Origin: a virus
Direction: 5' to 3' (one strand)
DNA: 42,613 nucleotides
Virus record (IMG/VR): IMGVR_UViG_3300040809_000386
Location: 1-42,613 of that record
Shown here: piece by piece, positions 626-36,862 of the stretch
Layout of the letters: every line of letters starts with the position of its first letter
Numbering within the stretch: position 1 is the stretch's first letter
Program-made: the position numbers and the translations under genes
The notes under the pieces: model-generated
What the model saw: only the letters and a program-made list of their open reading frames with translations
The model's database searches: none
What the model was told of the DNA's origin: nothing

Positions 626-3600
626 TTAGCCATTCCCATTTAAGAATAGCTGTGCTTTCAACATATCACCTAATATGCCGTCAGTGAAATTTACATTATT
701 TTCAAAATTAACTACTCCTGTTGGAGAGCTTATTTCATCTTGATTTAATATATTTGTTTGTCCAGCTAATAGTCCGCTGACTACAACATCGGCGCCACCG
801 CCACCAATTTGTGCTTCAATAAATGTTGCTAGTGCTTTTTGTGTCGGCACAATATTATCGCTATTAGCAGCTAATGCTCCGTCAGTGCTAAATTCTCTAA
901 CAACTGCACTAGTACCACCTAACGATACTCCGCCTAGTCTTAGTTCAGTCAATCCAGACAATTGGAAGTCATCTGCATTCAATGTAATAACACCAGTAGC
1001 CTGTTCAACTTTAAACAACTCGCCTACTCTAAAGTTACCATCTTGGTCAGTTGATGTGTAGAACACTCTGCCGCCGCCACTGTCAACTGCTTCGTTAGGT
1101 TGACTAGGTTCGTTAGCAGAATCATAACCAAATATATATCTGCTAGGATATTCAGTATCACTTGCATTACCTGTACCGATATCTAAGAAGTCGTGTCCTG
1201 TTAGTCTAACTTGACTATAGCTTTCTCTAATAGTGATTGCTGTTGCATGTGCTTGTGTTGTATTTGATTTTAAATACGGTGTTATTGCTAATGTTGCTGC
1301 AAAATTTGGTGCTGTTCCAGTAATATTTGAAACTTCAACTACAGCATAAAGCGTGTCAGTGCCAGTAAATTCTAAGTTTGCGCCAGGTCCTGGAATTAAT
1401 GACAATCCTGTTACATTAATAGTTGGCCCAACTGGAAATTCATCTGCATAGCCTGCGCCGCTTACTGTTGCAACAAATGCTGACTGGTACCCTGATCCTC
1501 TTGAAGTCCAAGTAGGTTGTGCTAACACGCCATTGCCAATTCTCACTTCCCATGCACCTGGTGATGTTGCGTTTGGATCTGTAATTGTAACCGTTGGAGG
1601 TGATGACGACTCATAACCCGATCCTGGTTCAATAATTTTAAATTGATTTAATCCGCCACCGGAAATAGCAAGTCTTACAAACGCTGTTGTGCCGCTAGTT
1701 GGATCATCAATAACAACCCTTGGTTCAATTTGATATCTACTTGTACTATCAGGTTGTACAAGAGTTGCTCCGGTGAAATGCTGCCAGCCAGCACTGTCAT
1801 CTGATTCTTTAGCGACAGTAACTTGTTTACTAACATTATCAAATGCTGTAATATATCCATATTGTCCTGCGCCTGCGCCACTAATAATAACTATTCTCAT
1901 ACCATCATAGTTTGCAAATGTATTAATATCTGCTCCTGACAATATCATAGTTCCTGCACCTAATGACCCGCCATCCTGTGCGTTACCTTGTAATTGTAGA
2001 TAACCTGTTCCTAAAGGAAGTAGTCCTGTGCCTGTCAATCTAATTTGGAAGATGCCGCCGTCTCTAGTATTAGCAGTTGTAGAAGTTGCTCCGGTCCCTG
2101 CGCCAGTAACTGTGTATGTTGTGCTGGCATCATATCCTTCACCTGCGTTTGCATATTCTACAGTTAATACTTGGTTACCATCAGTAACTACATCGTTAAC
2201 AATTGCTTGTCCTGCTCTATTATTTAATGAAGCAGTGATTGGTGTTTCAGTGTTATCAACACCTTCTGCAACACTACCATATTTTCCGTATGAGTTGTTA
2301 CCATTAGTACCTCTAATTTTTCCGCCATTCTCTGCAAGATAGCCAATGTGGTTGTAGTATGTAAACACACTAACAAGCTCTGTTCTACCTAAATTTGTAC
2401 ACCATACACCAATACCGTCACTTAGTACCTGTGTAAAGTCGTTAGCAACAATAGAATCGTTGCCGCCAGCATGTAAGTCTCCGTCAATTTTTAATCCTGT
2501 ACATCCTGTACCAATTGTAGTTACATTTTGAATATAAGGGGATCTAGTTTTAATCCAAACACTTTCATCAGTTGGGCCAGTGCCTGGGTCCAAACTTACA
2601 TATGCTACGTCATTAACTGGACGTTTAGTAAAGTATGCATTGTCAACAGTTAATATGTCAAACAAACCTTCCATAGTTAAATTTCTAATGCCGCTGGCAT
2701 TTCTAACATAGAACATCTTAGTTGACTCGTATCCTGTTTCTGGCTGTATTACTGTGCTTCTTAATTCGTCGCCAACAATTGCACAACCTTCTGGCACAGT
2801 AATTGGAAGAACTTCTTTGTAAATTCCAGTTTTAACTATTACAGTTGATTCTTTTAAAGTTTGCACTTTTGCATTAAAGGTTGTTCCAAGACCACCTACT
2901 TGTGTAAAAGTTTCATTTTTCCAAGTATCAAATGTTCTGTTTAGTTGATTCCATAAATCTCGACCAGCATCTTCTTGTGCTTGTGTTCCTGACCATGTAG
3001 ATGTTCCATCAATGAATGCTTCGTACCAACTTATCCATAAAGCAGCATCACCTGCAACTATTGCTCCGGTGCCTCCTAGATCGCCATATGGATTACTTGT
3101 TCTAGCATTATTTGATTCTAGTACTGCTTTTAAATTAGGAGCATCAATAGCATATTGTGCGTTTGCAGATGCGCTTAATTCTAAAGCATTATCAATAGCA
3201 GTGTAATTAATTGAATCTCTATATGTAGGATTAGCTATAATTTGATCACATGCATACTTGATTGTTTTATAAGGAGAGTTTAAACTCTTACCTCTCTCTG
3301 GATTATCAATTCCATCTGGATGTACGTAGAACACATCAGATATAAGATCAAGATCTTGCCAATCTAGTCCTGTAGATTGTACACGTAAAACCTGTCCTTC
3401 ATTACCTCTAGCAAATCTTTGCTTGTTTAATTTAGCAGGATCGTTTGTATATGTAATTAAATCACCGCGTGTTGTTAGTACGTTTGAAGTTTTACCTTCA
3501 GCATGTAAATTCCATGTTACTGAATCAGTATCTGGTCTTTTACCTGTTGTTGATATATGCTTTACTGTACAAATATATGTATTTGATCCATATGTTGCAA

Positions 3601-21581: not shown

Positions 21582-24500
21582 TTAGCCCGGCAATACACTT
21601 ACTGAGCTTGTTGCAATGTTACCGCTTGCTAAATTTTTTGTATTTCTTTGTACGCCTAATTCGATATCTCTTATTTCGGACAATACAGCTAATACTGCTC
21701 CCATTGTAGAGTTTAGTTGATCGCTGTTACTGCTGCCGCCACCTATTGAATCCATTTTAGCTACTACATCTCCGGCGTTAGTACCTTTACCTGGGCCATA
21801 TTTGTTATCTTTAGCAAGTTCGTCATTTAATTTTCCAAGAACTTCTACTAAAGACTCCATAGCACTAGTATACGTTCTAACGCCGTTGATGTCAAGTCCT
21901 TTTTTCAATGTTTCAAGATTATTTTGTAACTCTGGTATTGAAGCAAATGACTGCACTACAGATTGTGTCTGTTGTAGTGCTGCTAGTCCTGTTTGTGCTT
22001 GTGTCGGATCTAAACTTGCAGGATCAGGAGCTTCAGGAGCTTCAGGAGTTTCTACTGCTGCTGTCTCATCACCAAAAAATGATTTGCCTTCTCCGCCTAA
22101 CCATTTTGGCAAATATTGTTTAAAGTTTGGCATTTCAAAATCAAACGTAAAGAACCCTTTAACTTTATCAATTATACCTTGGAACATACTAGATATACTT
22201 GGTATTGCTAACTCACCAAAGCTAAACATACCTGTTACTGTTTCCCATGCAGTTGTTAACAATCCTGATATTGAAAATCCGGTAGCCTCTTCTCCCCATG
22301 CAAAGAAGCCTTTGACAGTTTCCCATGCTTTTGTTGCTAATATTGATATTCCTAAACCAATAGTATCGGCTTGCCATGTAAAGAAGCCTTTGACAGTTTC
22401 CCATGCTTTTGTTGCTAGTGCAGAAATACTAAATCCTTCTTCTCCAAAATCAAAGAACCCTGTTATCTTAGTCCATGCTTCGCTTATTAAAGTACTGATT
22501 GCATATGTTGCTTCACCTTCACCAAAGCCAAACCAACCAGTAACTGTATTCCATAATTTTGTAAGGTCTTCAGAGATACTAAACTTTGTATCAACAAGTG
22601 TAAACCAGCCTGTTACTGAATCCCATGCTTTTGTAGCAATATCTATAATGCTGTAATTTCCATCTTCGCCAACAGTAAACCAACCTGTCACTGATTCCCA
22701 AGCTGTACTAAACAATCCACTTATTCCAGTAGCAGCATCTCCTAGTACATCAGCTCCCCATGTGAATGCACCTGTTAACATATCCCATGCTCCGGCCAAT
22801 AAGTCCTTCATAGCTTGAATTCCAAACACTGCCACAACTGCTGCTGCGATGCCTGCAGGAATAGCCAATACTGGTGCGGCAATAGCTGCGCCGATTCCAA
22901 CTAATCCGCCTATGAATAAAGTACCCCAAGGTATGTCAAAGTCAAACATACCATCAGCAAATCCCTTTGCTGCTGCTGTAATGCCTTCTAATACAATATT
23001 ACCGCTATCACCAAATGCTTTTGATATTGTTCCGCCTTCGCCAAACAAATCTCCAATTAAACCTTTTACTTGTACAGTCTTTTTACCATCTGGTGTATCA
23101 ATTTCTTCTTCACCGCCAAATAGTGCTGTGCCTAATCCGTATTTTTTGAAATTGTCAACAAAGGTAGAAATTGAATTAAAGAAACTATCCATAGTAGCTT
23201 GTAGAGTTCCGTCTTCTATTATCCCAGTAATCTTTGTTGAAAAGTCTTTTACTAACGCAGCTGCGCCTTCAAAAATGCCACTGTCTACAAATGCTTCTTG
23301 TATAATACCTCGTGCGGCACGTATTGCTTCTTCAAACGTAGTAAATGCATCGGTAGTTTTATCTCGTGCGTCTTGTTCTTTCTTTGCTGCGCCTAAATCT
23401 CGACCTGCAACTTTCATCAGTTGTGGTATAGTATCTAAAAATTCGCCCATCGCTGGATTTGCTTGACGCAGAACGTCGATCATTTGTTTTTGTTCTGCTG
23501 CTGTACCTTTGGCAAATCCAGATAAACCTTCAACACTGTTTTCTAGAGCTTCCTGCAAAATCTTTGGGTCGGCGCCTTGACCAATTTGTTTAAGTGCGTC
23601 TTGCACAGCAGGACCTGCATCGCCCATCATTGCTAAAAACTGACCGGTTTCAGGACCACTAGGCATTCCGTCCAATAAATCTTTCATGGCGGCGCCTGCT
23701 GCTCCGCCAACATCGTCAATAAGTCCCAAACTCAATTGAAGATTTTTACCTCCTTCAGTAAGGTTCCCTTCAGCATCTCTAAATGCATTTAGCATGCCAC
23801 GAATACCTGCATCAGTTGCTTGTTCGCGTAATGCTTTTTCTGCTTCTTCTCTAGTCTTGCCTGTTACTTTAGCAAGTAAATCAACTTGTTTTAAATAATC
23901 TGCACTTCCGGCTGCAAGCTCTTCTGTGCTCTTTCCTTGGAGAGTACCCATACGTGCTTGCAGGTCAATATAATCTCCCATGCCTTCGTTAACTTCTTCA
24001 ACAGTAAATCCCATGTTTTTAAGAGCAGCAAAGTCTCCAGACTTTTTAATGTTGTCATTCATCTTTTTAAAGCGTTCAGCACCTAGGGTAACACTTCCGC
24101 CTAATGCTGCTAAGTTGTCTGCATTATTAGTTATAAGTCCAGCAAACTCATCTAACGACAATCCCATTTGAGCAGCACTTCTACGTGTTTCCATCATGTC
24201 ATTGCCAAATGCAGCACCTGTTGCACTTAGAGTTCTAAATGTAGAAACAGTGTTGTCAATGTATCCAGCAAAGCCGCCCAGCAATCCGCCAACAATTGGA
24301 ATGTGCTGTGCAAAGTCTGATAGATTATTTCCACCGTTAACAAATTCTTTAGCTAGACCTGTAAAGCCACCTACTACTGATCCTAACAGCCCGCCAACAG
24401 CATTCATAGATGCCTGGCCTAATTTTTTAATAGTGTTTGTAGTCTTCTTAGTTTCTTTAGTATTTTCTTTTTTAGCTGTTGAATTTTCTTTTATATGCTT

Positions 24501-24671
24501 AGAAGATTCGTCCATTACTGCCTGCATCTTCTTAGTAATGTCAGCAGGATTAACGCCTTTTGCTTTAGCCATTGCTTCCATAGTCACAACTAAACGAGCA
24601 AGAGTCACTTCGCTTGCTACACCGTCGCTGCCGCCTACATTGCCAATTTCTACTTCTTCAGCCAAAATCAC
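21582..24671 (-). CDS. Tail tape measure protein candidate (~1029 aa)
   Basis: A long helical protein. Residues 1-90 are coiled coil with a Lys/Thr-rich stretch. A Gly-rich hydrophobic segment lies near 90-140 and a strongly hydrophobic one near 575-615 (GGLVGIGAAIAAPVLAIPAG). About nine tandem repeats of W-x(2)-(V/I)-(T/K)-G-x-F, each about 33-40 residues, fall near 630-845. Regular Trp/Phe repeats and hydrophobic segments are typical of tape measure proteins, which set tail length (T4 gp29 is the functional counterpart). Its divergent neighbour is a frameshifted chaperone pair, which also fits. The listed start is a GTG; a TTG at 24665 (giving MAEEVEIGN) has AGGA at a better distance and may be the true start. 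Confidence 0.65.
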   Translation of the reverse strand: MILAEEVEIGNVGGSDGVASEVTLARLVVTMEAMAKAKGVNPADITKKMQAVMDESSKHIKENSTAKKENTKETKKTTNTIKKLGQASMNAVGGLLGSVVGGFTGLAKEFVNGGNNLSDFAQHIPIVGGLLGGFAGYIDNTVSTFRTLSATGAAFGNDMMETRRSAAQMGLSLDEFAGLITNNADNLAALGGSVTLGAERFKKMNDNIKKSGDFAALKNMGFTVEEVNEGMGDYIDLQARMGTLQGKSTEELAAGSADYLKQVDLLAKVTGKTREEAEKALREQATDAGIRGMLNAFRDAEGNLTEGGKNLQLSLGLIDDVGGAAGAAMKDLLDGMPSGPETGQFLAMMGDAGPAVQDALKQIGQGADPKILQEALENSVEGLSGFAKGTAAEQKQMIDVLRQANPAMGEFLDTIPQLMKVAGRDLGAAKKEQDARDKTTDAFTTFEEAIRAARGIIQEAFVDSGIFEGAAALVKDFSTKITGIIEDGTLQATMDSFFNSISTFVDNFKKYGLGTALFGGEEEIDTPDGKKTVQVKGLIGDLFGEGGTISKAFGDSGNIVLEGITAAAKGFADGMFDFDIPWGTLFIGGLVGIGAAIAAPVLAIPAGIAAAVVAVFGIQAMKDLLAGAWDMLTGAFTWGADVLGDAATGISGLFSTAWESVTGWFTVGEDGNYSIIDIATKAWDSVTGWFTLVDTKFSISEDLTKLWNTVTGWFGFGEGEATYAISTLISEAWTKITGFFDFGEEGFSISALATKAWETVKGFFTWQADTIGLGISILATKAWETVKGFFAWGEEATGFSISGLLTTAWETVTGMFSFGELAIPSISSMFQGIIDKVKGFFTFDFEMPNFKQYLPKWLGGEGKSFFGDETAAVETPEAPEAPDPASLDPTQAQTGLAALQQTQSVVQSFASIPELQNNLETLKKGLDINGVRTYTSAMESLVEVLGKLNDELAKDNKYGPGKGTNAGDVVAKMDSIGGGSSNSDQLNSTMGAVLAVLSEIRDIELGVQRNTKNLASGNIATSSVSVLPG
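22140..22800 (-). repeat. Tandem Trp/Phe repeats in the tape-measure candidate
   Basis: About nine protein-level repeats (AWDMLTGAFTW, AWESVTGWFTV, AWDSVTGWFTL, LWNTVTGWFGF, AWTKITGFFDF, AWETVKGFFTW, AWETVKGFFAW, AWETVTGMFSF, IIDKVKGFFTF). Two adjacent units share long identical DNA stretches (around 22300-22410), which suggests recent duplication. Confidence 0.75.
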
Positions 24672-24691
24672 TATCCTAAGTTATATGCGCA

Positions 24692-24699
24692 TATAAATA
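24692..24699 (+). promoter_or_regulatory. Perfect T4 late promoter TATAAATA for gene 26
   Basis: TATAAATA on the plus strand, 44 nt before the gene 26 ATG at 24743. It faces the minus-strand late promoter at 24724-24731. Confidence 0.75.
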
Positions 24700-24723
24700 A
24701 TAGAGATACATATTATTACATTG

Positions 24724-24731
24724 TATTTATA
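24724..24731 (-). promoter_or_regulatory. Perfect T4 late promoter TATAAATA for the tape-measure candidate
   Basis: TATTTATA on the plus strand reads TATAAATA leftward, about 53 nt before the tape-measure start. It lies downstream of the opposing promoter at 24692, so the two late transcripts should overlap at their 5' ends. Confidence 0.72.
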
Positions 24732-24742
24732 CGGAGACAATC

Positions 24743-25630
24743 ATGGCAGAATTTAACCCCCAAGAATATTCAGGTAATATTAACCTGGATCCTAATCCTT
24801 TAAGGAAATACTTTAGACAACCTAAAGTTTATGTTACATTACCAAGTAATGGACAATTTTATCCTGAAGGCACAATTGATATTCCAGAAAACGGTGAATA
24901 TCCTGTACTAGCAATGACAGCAAAAGATGAACTTGCTATGAAGACTCCAGATGCATTGCTAAACGGACAAGCTACTGTTGATGTAATACAAAGTTGTATG
25001 CCTAATATCAAAGACGCATGGAAACTTCCAAGTGTTGATTTAGATGCTATTCTAATTGCTATACGTATTGCAACATATGGTGAAGAAATGGAAATTACTA
25101 CTAAAGTTCCAGGCATCGGTGAAGAACGTTCATTTAATATTGATCTAAGACAACTACTAAACAAACTTGTTACTGCTGACTACGATGGACACGTTCAGTT
25201 AGGTGAGATGAGTGTTACTACTCGTCCACTAACTTATTTAGAATTTACAGAAGCAAGCCTACAAACGTTTGAAGAACAACGTATCTTTGCACTAGTTAAT
25301 GATGAAGAAATTTCAGATGGTGAAAAACTTTCTAAATTTAATAATAGTTTTAAAAAATTAACAGATCTAACAGTTAATACACTAACTCAAAGTATTGTTG
25401 AAATTACAGTAGGAGACGATACTGTAACGAATCCTGCACATATTCAAGAATTTGTTGACAATGCTGATAAATCTTTCTTTAGATCTATAACTGATCACTT
25501 AGATAATCAAAAGAAAAAGTTTTCAATTGAACCGTTAAAAGTTAATAGTACTGACGAAGATGTTGAAGCTGGTGCGCCTAAGCACTGGGAAGTACCAATT
25601 ACGTTTGACCAAGCAAATTTTTTCGGATAA
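24743..25630 (+). CDS. 26: Gp26-like baseplate hub/tail assembly protein (295 aa)
   Basis: Starts MAEFNPQEYSGNINLDPNPL, then KYFRQPKVYVTLPSNGQFYPEGTI, the conserved start of the T4_baseplate (gp26) family. LAMTAKDELAMKTPDALLNG and the CMPNIKDAWKLPSVDLDAIL stretch are also typical. T4 gp26 is 208 aa. In T4 it is grouped with hub assembly proteins; here its position beside a tape measure and the -1 frameshift at its 3' end suggest it is a tail-assembly chaperone. ATG with GGAG 6 nt before it. The 0-frame stops at TAA 25628-25630. A -1 shift would give a fusion of about 370 aa with the next frame. Confidence 0.85.
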   Translation: MAEFNPQEYSGNINLDPNPLRKYFRQPKVYVTLPSNGQFYPEGTIDIPENGEYPVLAMTAKDELAMKTPDALLNGQATVDVIQSCMPNIKDAWKLPSVDLDAILIAIRIATYGEEMEITTKVPGIGEERSFNIDLRQLLNKLVTADYDGHVQLGEMSVTTRPLTYLEFTEASLQTFEEQRIFALVNDEEISDGEKLSKFNNSFKKLTDLTVNTLTQSIVEITVGDDTVTNPAHIQEFVDNADKSFFRSITDHLDNQKKKFSIEPLKVNSTDEDVEAGAPKHWEVPITFDQANFFG

Positions 25631-25647
25631 GGGTCCTAGCATGGACC
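25615..25647 (+). promoter_or_regulatory. Programmed -1 ribosomal frameshift signal
   Basis: In the gene 26 frame the bases read A AAT TTT TTC GGA TAA. This contains two overlapping canonical X XXY YYZ slippery heptamers, A AAT TTT (25615-25621) and T TTT TTC (25618-25624), just before the stop. Seven nt after the second begins a stem GGTCC (25632-25636)/GGACC (25643-25647) with a 6-nt loop, at the usual spacing for a stimulator. A -1 shift enters exactly the frame of the 25648-25854 ORF, which is open back through the site. Confidence 0.75.
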
Positions 25648-25854
25648 GTGCCAGAGATCCTCGAAGAAGTAAAGGTCCTACAAGGTGATCAGAAGCAGAT
25701 TAAATCTGAGATAATGAAACTGTGTTGGTATATGCGAGGCGGTGTTACACTCGATGAAGGATTTAATTTAAGTCACGAAGATAGGCAATTAATTGCAGAT
25801 ATTGTTAAAGAGAATATGGAAACAACAAAGAAAAGCGGATTACCTTTTTTCTAA
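25648..25854 (+). CDS. -1 frame extension of gp26 (chaperone C-terminal domain, gp51-like position)
   Basis: The only start codon is a GTG that lies at the end of the frameshift stem, and no good ribosome site precedes it. The frame is open back to the slippery site (FRIRVLAWTVPEILEEVK), so it is best read as the C-terminal 77 residues of a gp26 fusion. Conserved-looking core: KLCWYMRGGVTLDEGFNLSH followed by EDRQLIADIVKENME and a KKSGLPFF end. A small helical domain with W-x-x-R-G is common in tail chaperone extensions. The alternative is independent GTG translation. The stop overlaps the stop of the convergent 118-aa gene by 4 nt. Confidence 0.65.
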   Translation: MPEILEEVKVLQGDQKQIKSEIMKLCWYMRGGVTLDEGFNLSHEDRQLIADIVKENMETTKKSGLPFF

Positions 25855-25868
25855 AAAGGTTTTCCTGT
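25842..25868 (+). terminator. Possible terminator between convergent genes
   Basis: ACCTTTTT (25842-25849) and AAAAAGGT (25853-25860) form an 8-bp stem with a 3-nt loop that spans both stop codons, followed by TTTCC. The stem is AT-rich, so strength is uncertain. Confidence 0.4.
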
Positions 25869-26207
25869 TTTAGGATCAAGCAGTTTAGCTCTTTTAATGA
25901 TAAAGTTTTGTTTTCCAGAGTTTATAACTACTACACTGTCGTCACCGTCTTTACTTGCTCCAACTACTTTAGCATTAGTTAGTTTTCCTGCTTTACTCAT
26001 AAATTGTACTGGTTGGTTTGGGGCAAACTTTACTTGCGGAGCAGGCTTTGCTACAGTTTTTGATTTAGAAGTAGACTTTGCTTTGTTTTCTTCAGCATCT
26101 TTCCATCCTTGTTTAATTGGATCCCATATAGCTCCTACTTTATTAGATTTTTTAAAGCCAGTTTTGAAAGAATCTTTAAATCCTTCGTCAATTTCATTAA
26201 TTTTCAT
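25851..26207 (-). CDS. Small basic protein with MKINEI start (118 aa)
   Basis: The N-terminus is MKINEIDEGFKDSFKTGF. A Lys/Ala/Pro-rich linker (KAKSTSKSKTVAKPAPQVK) leads to a small beta domain at about 65-118 (VQFMSKAGKLTNAKVVGASK, VVVINSGKQNFIIKRAKLL) that looks like an SH3- or KOW-type barrel. The ATG overlaps the TGA of the hydrolase gene upstream (ATGA), so the two are translationally coupled. The function is unknown; nucleic-acid or protein binding is plausible from charge and fold only. Confidence 0.55.
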   Translation of the reverse strand: MKINEIDEGFKDSFKTGFKKSNKVGAIWDPIKQGWKDAEENKAKSTSKSKTVAKPAPQVKFAPNQPVQFMSKAGKLTNAKVVGASKDGDDSVVVINSGKQNFIIKRAKLLDPKTGKPF

Positions 26208-27311: not shown

Positions 27312-27761
27312 TTATGTGTTAGATTGTTTTGCCTTGATATGGTGTTCTAGCAATGCCTGTTTGAGTTTGTCTGAGCCGCCTACTCTAACATTAATGATAC
27401 CGTTGTAGTAATCATCTGTTTCAAGTACTCGCCTATCAAACTGCTCTCGTGCCTCAATATAGGACATCTCGCCCCTGCCTTTGCATAGATATAGAATTTC
27501 TCTTGTAAAGTTCTCTGGACCAAGTTCTGCAACATCTGCATTTAGTCTATCTGAGCTACCCCAATAGTCACGCCAGTCGCTTTCTTTTGTTCCACGTCTT
27601 TTATTTTTTTTGCCTTTGAGTGGTGGCTTTGTAGTTTTAAATTTTGCTAGTTTTTTGCCTACATATTTTTGATTTGTAATGGTATTAGTAATAAGATAAA
27701 CAAAACCTTCGTACTCTTTTGGTATTTGGTCAATTGTTTTTCCTTGGTAAGTCCATTGCAT
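27312..27761 (-). CDS. GIY-YIG endonuclease-like protein (149 aa)
   Basis: The GIY-YIG core is seen as GFVYLITNTITNQKYVGKK (residues about 19-37), followed by a basic stretch with KKNKRRGTKESDWRDYWGSS and the family Glu in MSYIEAREQFDRR. It belongs to the single-domain endonucleases common in T4-like phages (Seg-like). No separate DNA-binding domain is visible, so it may be a free-standing nicking or homing enzyme or a repair nuclease. It is the last protein gene of the gp55-gp47-gp46 unit and borders a large structured RNA. Confidence 0.82.
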   Translation of the reverse strand: MQWTYQGKTIDQIPKEYEGFVYLITNTITNQKYVGKKLAKFKTTKPPLKGKKNKRRGTKESDWRDYWGSSDRLNADVAELGPENFTREILYLCKGRGEMSYIEAREQFDRRVLETDDYYNGIINVRVGGSDKLKQALLEHHIKAKQSNT

Positions 27762-30849: not shown

Positions 30850-31689
30850 TTAATCGGTGAATGGTGTCTGGCTAGCTTGTTCGTTACGCTTAACACTAGC
30901 TTCCCATTCACCTTCGTTCTGCCTAGTATAGCTCGGTGTTAAGTCATTCATTTCTAAAATGTCATCACGTATGTTTTGATTACGTTTTTCAATGTTAATT
31001 ACTCTAACAAACGAATTTGTTACGGCTGCGGTATAGTATGCAAAAGGGTTATCCGACTTTGACTCGTCAAATTGCAATCCAATTTGTGTTAATTGCAAAA
31101 TAGCTTGACCTTTCATTTCATCGTTATAGGTATATCCACGAACATTGCCGCGGGTAGCATAACGATCTACTAATTTTAACCACATCATTGCAAGTTTATC
31201 AGTTGCTTTACCGTGTTTATGATTAAAACAACCATTTTCCATGCCACCTTGCCAATGCGACTTGCCAACTAGTTGTAAATTTCCTTCGTCGTCAAATTTA
31301 TAATGTACAAATGGAGGAAAATTTAATTTGACTTTAGTATCTGCTATTGTTTTTGGATTCTTTTTTCTTCCTACTTCTTCTGGAATATGATCAAATGTCA
31401 TAACACGGAAGATTAATTCTTCTTTAGTAATTGAAGTGTAAGGAACTTCACATTCTGCTTGTTTTACTTTTTCACCTGCCATTTTTCTGCGTTCATATTC
31501 TGCACTTGACAGCTTTTTTGCTTTATTGCGTTTTGCTTCAGCAATTGTACGTATATTAATTTTTTCTACATCGGGTAAAATAATATCATATTGTCCGTAT
31601 AACGGATCTATGTAGCTATTGAATGTATTTTTTGATTTGTGTATTTCTTTTAAGATATCTTTGTTGTTTAGATAATTTTTTGCTCGCAT
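30850..31689 (-). CDS. 55: Late-transcription sigma factor gp55
   Basis: T4-type late sigma that directs polymerase to TATAAATA promoters. The sigma region-2-like core is DEMKGQAILQLTQIGLQFDE, then SDNPFAYYTAAVTNSFVRVI and NIEKRNQNIRDDIL; the DNPFAY motif is diagnostic. At 279 aa it is much longer than T4 gp55 (185). About 110 N-terminal residues are extra and basic (RTIAEAKRNKAKKLSSAEYE) and could contact polymerase, DNA or other phage factors. It heads the minus-strand unit with gp47 and gp46 and is preceded by a consensus sigma70 promoter that overlaps a late element. Confidence 0.88.
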   Translation of the reverse strand: MRAKNYLNNKDILKEIHKSKNTFNSYIDPLYGQYDIILPDVEKINIRTIAEAKRNKAKKLSSAEYERRKMAGEKVKQAECEVPYTSITKEELIFRVMTFDHIPEEVGRKKNPKTIADTKVKLNFPPFVHYKFDDEGNLQLVGKSHWQGGMENGCFNHKHGKATDKLAMMWLKLVDRYATRGNVRGYTYNDEMKGQAILQLTQIGLQFDESKSDNPFAYYTAAVTNSFVRVINIEKRNQNIRDDILEMNDLTPSYTRQNEGEWEASVKRNEQASQTPFTD

Positions 31690-36142: not shown

Positions 36143-36862
36143 ATGCCATACCAAGATTTAGCACCAGATGCAGGACCAGAAGACATTCAACAAAAAGGGG
36201 CAGATGCTCCTTCTGAAGATCTTCCTGTTGAAGGTCAGTATTGGCTAGACGAATATGAAACAATTACCTATTTAACATACGATCAGTTTGTCGCAGATAT
36301 TGTTAGTGTTGCAAAGCCTATAACAGAAAATACAATGCCTACTCTTGTTAGGGTAGTTAACGGTGAACCATTTTATACTATGAAAAATAGATTTTTTATA
36401 GCATATGCATCTATTAACGGAAATGTAATACGTACATTATACGATTATAATGCAGAAATAGTAGAAAATAGTGATAGAACTAAAATTTTCCAGCCTCCAG
36501 GCTCTGTTAAATGTGGAGAATATAAAGGTCTTCCTATATTTGAAGCTAATCCAGATGTTAGTAATGAACCGCCTGAAGAATCTTCTTCTGTAACAAGTAA
36601 CGCCAGCGGCACAACAACAAAAACAACACAAAACACAAAGACCGGAGAAACAACAACTACTACAAAAACAACTAGTGAAACTGAAGATCAAGAACCAGAT
36701 GCAGGTCCAGCAACTCCTAATACTGAAACAACTACTCCTTCTACTGTTACTGAACCTCCTCCAACTGCATCTTCAGGAACAGTATATAATTACGAAGTAC
36801 TAAAGCCTGGGTTTGACAGATATGATTTTAAAAGTGGAAAAAAGGTTTTTACAACTCCTTAA
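36143..36862 (+). CDS. Thr-rich baseplate-region protein (239 aa)
   Basis: A globular N-terminal domain of about 135 residues (YWLDEYETITYLTYDQFVAD, TLVRVVNGEPFYTMKNRFFI) precedes a long Thr/Glu/Pro linker (residues about 145-210) and a short conserved-looking end (YNYEVLKPGFDRYDFKSGKK). The linker codons are simple and ACA-rich, as in flexible tethers. It lies 56 nt after the hub protein and 11 nt before gp5, with AAGGA before its ATG. A structural tether or chaperone for the gp5 spike is possible; function not recognised. Confidence 0.55.
   Translation: MPYQDLAPDAGPEDIQQKGADAPSEDLPVEGQYWLDEYETITYLTYDQFVADIVSVAKPITENTMPTLVRVVNGEPFYTMKNRFFIAYASINGNVIRTLYDYNAEIVENSDRTKIFQPPGSVKCGEYKGLPIFEANPDVSNEPPEESSSVTSNASGTTTKTTQNTKTGETTTTTKTTSETEDQEPDAGPATPNTETTTPSTVTEPPPTASSGTVYNYEVLKPGFDRYDFKSGKKVFTTP

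Follow-up and report, generated by a model that had tools for sequence, protein, structure and literature searches.

A gp26-like gene of a marine T4-like myophage as a probable tail assembly chaperone made by -1 frameshifting on T TTT TTC

Tail assembly chaperones of T4-like phages were identified by Vladimirov, Gautam & Davidson in 2022 (Virology 566:9-15), a study that we compared through papers citing it (PMC10885494, PMC12846349). As these papers describe it, T4-like phages have short and long chaperone forms sharing their N-terminus (PMC10885494, PMC12846349), poly-T -1 frameshift signals are known in the TAC-N genes of T4-like phages (PMC12846349), and frameshifting is replaced in some T4-like phages by a short gene together with a longer, fused one (PMC10885494). 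From the description, the chaperone genes meant would be gp26 and gp51. In phage lambda, gpG and gpGT are two forms made by a -1 frameshift beside the tape-measure gene, and a 2016 review described the G-T frameshift as widely conserved except in T4 (PMC5009743). Sullivan et al. 2010 reported cyanophage and vibriophage gp51 copies that lack about 200 N-terminal residues (PMC3037559).

Here, we analysed a 42.6-kb virus record (the whole stretch is called the window below), which has T4-type portal, major head protein, baseplate wedge, late sigma and gp46 genes. We consider it highly probable from comparative sequence analysis that its gp26-like gene encodes the frameshifted tail assembly chaperone (TAC-N/TAC-NC) of a marine T4-like myophage, with the slip on T TTT TTC. 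As T4-like chaperones and poly-T signals are already published, to go by the citing papers, the finding adds a case to a known kind: the chaperone reading, though very probably correct, is no novelty. A view of the T4 gp26/gp51 link as unpublished was rejected when Vladimirov et al. 2022 was found through those papers. Relative to that study as represented by its citing papers, what is new here is an unannotated case, the spread among jumbo phages, the signals in the RNA, and a tape-measure gene that is divergent, with a late-promoter motif facing each gene. The set of T4-like phages with an evident frameshifted chaperone is thereby extended to an uncultivated marine clade and to RaK2-like jumbo phages. 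The features are listed in Table 1.

Table 1. Features of the gp26-like locus and related features in the window
Feature	Positions	Strand	Evidence or remark
Tape-measure protein gene, divergent from TAC-N	21582..24671	-	phrog_58 tail length tape measure protein, E 4.7e-19
T4-type late promoter motif TATAAATA facing TAC-N	24692..24699	+	pattern search
T4-type late promoter motif TATAAATA facing tape-measure gene	24724..24731	-	pattern search
Putative TAC-N, gp26-like short form, 295 aa	24743..25630	+	T4_baseplate PF12322, E 2.2e-13; phrog_150, E 7.3e-16
A AAT TTT overlapping heptamer, probably incidental	25615..25621	+	varies among relatives
T TTT TTC slippery heptamer, in phase, one codon (GGA) ahead of TAA	25618..25624	+	invariant in relatives
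-1 extension, 76 aa + stop; putative long form TAC-NC, 370 aa (294 + 76)	25624..25854	+	length kept in relatives; purifying selection; AlphaFold model
Predicted stimulatory hairpin, 5-nt spacer, outer stem 25630-25635 with 25656-25661	25630..25661	+	covariation; clade fold z
T4-type late transcription sigma factor homologue	30850-31689	-	phrog_12791, E 9.9e-79

Relation to T4 gp26 and gp51

We observed that T4 gp26 and gp51 form one family across their length; by sequence, they are paralogues. The cyanophage fusion matches phrog_150 over positions 5-280 of 282, much like T4 gp51, and hhalign aligned the cyanophage fusions with T4 gp51 throughout (98.4%). In isolation, the cyanophage -1 domain matches phrog_634 'baseplate hub assembly catalyst' (1.8e-30), and so does the gp51 C-terminus; the -1 domains of cyanophages, PX29, D484 and RHph_Y68 also match the gp51 C-terminus. 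The cyanophage -1 domain is, on these matches, the C-terminus of T4 gp51, and because gp26 and gp51 are paralogues, frameshifting would therefore give a gp26-like short form and a gp51-like long form, the two members of the tail assembly chaperone pair. Full-length window-type fusions aligned with the cyanophage fusions (98.5%) and with the jumbo phage fusions (100%), and the -1 domains of the window and jumbo families matched on their own (96.7%). By itself, neither the window nor the jumbo -1 domain profile significantly matched the cyanophage gp51 domain, and direct hhalign of window-type or jumbo fusions against single-sequence T4 gp51 or gp26 gave no match; the link from the window to gp51 therefore needs the cyanophage profile together with the full-length fusions.

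T4 resembles the frameshifted loci in that its gp26 corresponds to the short form and its gp51 is collinear with the cyanophage fusion. However, it has two genes and no slippery site, and T4 gp26 ends with Phe-Phe spelled TTC TTT. The short gene was also free of the heptamer in the other Straboviridae with two genes (RB43, Aeromonas phage 31 and a Krischvirus). In an unrooted tree, the gp51 copies grouped together (100/97), and so did the frameshift forms (85/94), among which K474 was placed. This tree, unrooted as it is, fits a history in which the two-gene T4 pair replaced an ancestral frameshift by duplication, a view that thus gains support. The 'short gp51' of cyanophages and vibriophages equals the -1 domain or a C-terminal part of it. 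It has been read as a truncated copy (PMC3037559), whereas a frameshift from gp26 would account for the gap: these proteins probably looked truncated because their N-terminal part comes by frameshift from gp26. In RB43 (positions 1801-3487 of our locus L185), a gp51-like, a gp26-like and a gp25-like gene follow one another on the same strand and the first two overlap, an arrangement consistent with tandem duplication.

The likeness to lambda gpG/gpGT lies in the two forms from a -1 frameshift beside the tape-measure gene. Unlike in lambda, the tape-measure gene of the window is divergent and not downstream on the same strand, and sequence or fold similarity to lambda gpG/gpGT and other frameshifted chaperones was not found. 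Fold searches with the models of gp26 and of the -1 domain gave neither a usable match to a known chaperone fold nor a significant PDB match, and sequence searches of PDB gave nothing relevant.

It could be argued that the gene encodes a structural part of the baseplate hub only, and that the -1 domain has some other role. Such genes are annotated as 'baseplate hub', and genetic work cited in PMC3004832 puts T4 gp26 in the hub; however, the same review lists gp26 and gp51 as hub assembly chaperones, with gp51 absent from the particle. Moreover, CBB_250, the gp26 homologue of jumbo phage CBB, is absent from the printed stretch CBB_247-CBB_251 of the virion proteomics table, which hints at a non-virion role for a protein whose GenBank label is 'structural protein'. 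Hence, we regard a purely structural role as unlikely. The original prediction had suggested that gp26 and the following domain are the tape-measure chaperone rather than only a hub part, and this gains support from the kept slip site, the -1 frame under purifying selection, the T4 gp26/gp51 architecture and the published T4-like chaperones.

The slippery heptamer

The gp26-like gene ends with GCA AAT TTT TTC GGA TAA. Among the 12,346 codon pairs of the 31 main ORFs of the window, in-phase T TTT TTC occurs once, at this 3' end, and owing to this single occurrence its presence here is beyond chance. The first scan of viral contigs, made with the window's own gp26-like protein as the query, found 77 relatives, 73 of which included the 3' end of the gene. 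We observed T TTT TTC 1-4 codons ahead of the stop in all these 73 window-type contigs, down to 38% identity. The second scan, with cyanophage gp26 as the query, gave 80 loci, and the heptamer was invariant in 80/80. Thus, the slip site and the -1 frame singled out in the original prediction are kept in all 153 contigs examined. Among 14 named jumbo phages, RaK2-like and others, 13 also had T TTT TTC and the remaining one, XacN1, had T TTT TTT; the T4-like phages S-BM1, PX29, Ps15, D484 and P-RSM4 had T TTT TTC as well. Variant heptamers were seen in RHph_Y68 (T TTT TTG) and in Melnitz, C48C1 and CM1 (T TTT TTT). The canonical heptamer was not found in the gp26 relative of Vibrio phage K474, nor was a heptamer found at the stop examined in the uncultured phage LR756511. 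In K474 (around position 3223 of our locus L100), the -1 ORF is present and an ATG overlaps the stop (TAATG), so that coupled translation may be used instead.

The Phe-Phe pair at the slip spot was spelled TTT TTC in every locus of two non-redundant sets (35 and 66), whereas the gene's own codon use gives an expectation of 0.16-0.21 per locus; because the loci are related by descent and the window's protein served as the query of the first scan, a combined probability would not be a formal test. The codon ahead of Phe-Phe, in contrast, varies: in the 35 non-redundant loci it was AAT (23), ACT (6), CAT (2), GAT (2), GCT (1) or AGT (1). Two overlapping in-phase heptamers had been proposed before the stop, and both are present in phase. 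Because of this variation, A AAT TTT was ruled out as the slip site and is probably incidental, and T TTT TTC alone is conserved. In-phase TTTTTTC at the end of gp26 thus offers a compact annotation rule that marks the site. The window has another in-phase heptamer, A AAA AAG (36836-36862, plus strand), a few codons ahead of the stop of ORF 36143-36862; it was rejected as a fusion site, since its -1 frame closes before the next gene.

The -1 frame domain and RNA signals

After the slip, the -1 frame reads FF-RIRVLAWTVPEIL..., with 76 open codons (25624-25851) and a stop at 25852-25854. The mechanically called 68-aa GTG ORF (25648-25854) is the 3' part of this extension. The original prediction had equated the -1 frame with that ORF and placed its sole GTG start inside a stem; the frame is open and contains the ORF, but the GTG (25648) sits just 3' of the 5-bp stem. 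The domain is 75-76 aa long in all 70 complete window-type loci, and in the 80 cyanophage-type loci the frame runs for about 60-68 aa where the contig continues. An AlphaFold model of the domain is all-helical (pLDDT 92). None of the phage records examined annotates a fusion. The -1 frame stop shares 4 nt (25851-25854) with the end of a convergent ORF on the minus strand (25851-26207).

Next, we compared the nonsynonymous/synonymous ratios of the reading frames. Over an initial stretch of ten analysed codons past the stop, the -1 frame had a ratio of 0.49 for the window type and 0.34 for the cyanophage type, as against 0.9-1.6 in the other frames; the underlying distances are uncorrected and partly saturated, and the evidence is the contrast between frames rather than the absolute values. 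In loci having no possible start in the first 14 codons, the -1-frame ratio was 0.59 (window type) and 0.32 (cyanophage type); across both comparisons, the other frames spanned 0.8-4.3. These ratios indicate that -1 codons upstream of any start codon are under purifying selection.

This result bears on whether the -1 ORF might be a small gene in its own right, with translation beginning by re-initiation or at an internal GTG/ATG. An ATG does overlap the gp26 stop in some relatives (ATGA in our locus L010 and others, TAATG in 121Q), and many records annotate a separate small ORF ('baseplate hub assembly catalyst', gp51). However, start codons come and go among the relatives while T TTT TTC is constant; 13 of 23 window-type loci tested have no ATG, GTG or TTG in the first 14 codons of the -1 frame, yet these codons are under purifying selection; and T4 gp51 is a fused protein. 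The GTG at 25648, which the original prediction had weighed as a possible independent start, is not conserved, most relatives having no start codon there. We therefore judge a separate gene to be very improbable and retain frameshifting.

As for RNA signals, the 5-bp GC stem (GGTCC/GGACC) of the original prediction does exist at 25632-25636/25643-25647; however, it is unconserved, with 44.6% of cells paired across relatives versus 49.3% in shuffles, and it is unsupported as a stimulator. A longer stem (25630-25635 with 25656-25661), which was named after the alignment had been viewed, beats its own shifted versions, the paired changes in relatives falling mainly at one C-G/U-A pair. RNAalifold did not find a consensus structure on either alignment, and the stems were then assessed by named-pair counts and fold z-scores. 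In the window, the fold of 25625-25690 has a minimum energy of -16.2 kcal/mol with a z of only -0.68, no better than shuffled sequence. The mean z just past the slip site was -1.07 ± 0.28 for the window type and -1.69 to -2.11 ± 0.2 for the cyanophage type, with control windows mostly near 0. The hairpin at 25630-25661 is thus supported for the clade, as a predicted structure, by covariation. The cyanophage loci have another 5-bp hairpin, in which all five pairs show changes on both sides. A GAG-GGR stretch some 9 nt ahead of the heptamer is also enriched in cyanophages (GAG 71% versus 31% gene-wide), which suggests an internal Shine-Dalgarno element. That RNA polymerase rather than the ribosome changes frame on the T run is extremely unlikely: the site is a six-T run (7-8 T in XacN1, CM1, Melnitz and C48C1), but six T is short for transcriptional slippage, and the codon phase is fixed, C at position 7 is fixed in nearly all loci and the downstream structure is selected, as in tandem ribosomal slippage.

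In the ribosomal frameshift that we favour, most ribosomes would stop at TAA (25628-25630) and release the short form, and a fraction would slip back one base while tRNA-Phe occupies the P and A sites over the heptamer, aided by the hairpin 5 nt downstream. The slipped ribosomes would produce the long form with its helical C-terminal domain. By analogy with lambda gpG/gpGT, the tape-measure protein would be coated by the short form, while the long form, the rarer of the two, would bring tube subunits to it. In this scheme, sequence comparison shows the conservation of the slip site, the selection on the -1 frame, the structure signal downstream in the clade and the homology to T4 gp26/gp51; slippage efficiency, tape-measure binding and the roles of the two forms are what we infer.

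The tape-measure neighbour and late promoters

The gp26-like gene was predicted to lie beside the tape-measure gene, and the phrog_58 match of its neighbour bears this out. The usual order, with the chaperone upstream of the tape measure on the same strand, which we did not regard as essential, is not found here; in the window, the two genes lie on opposite strands. In 72/72 testable relatives, the gene has a divergent neighbour of 300 aa or more, classed as an ORF and not individually as a tape measure, and the distance between them is mostly about 73 nt; RaK2-like jumbo phages have a large divergent gene in the same place.

The 71-nt gap (24672-24742) holds two of the four exact TATAAATA motifs of the window, one facing each flanking gene, and a late sigma factor is encoded in the window (Table 1). 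Since four motifs in total do not exceed the chance expectation (5.9), the late-promoter argument rests on the position of the motifs. In the gaps of the 72 relatives, exact motifs were observed on the plus strand in 33 and on the minus strand in 32. We tentatively propose, at slightly less than even confidence, that back-to-back late promoters about 70 nt apart may drive the chaperone and tape-measure genes in opposite directions, and that paired promoters and frameshifting, not operon order, may set the ratio of the products. Elsewhere in the window, a SegE-like GIY-YIG homing endonuclease gene (27312-27761, minus strand; PF19835, E 7e-35) lies close to the gp46-like gene.
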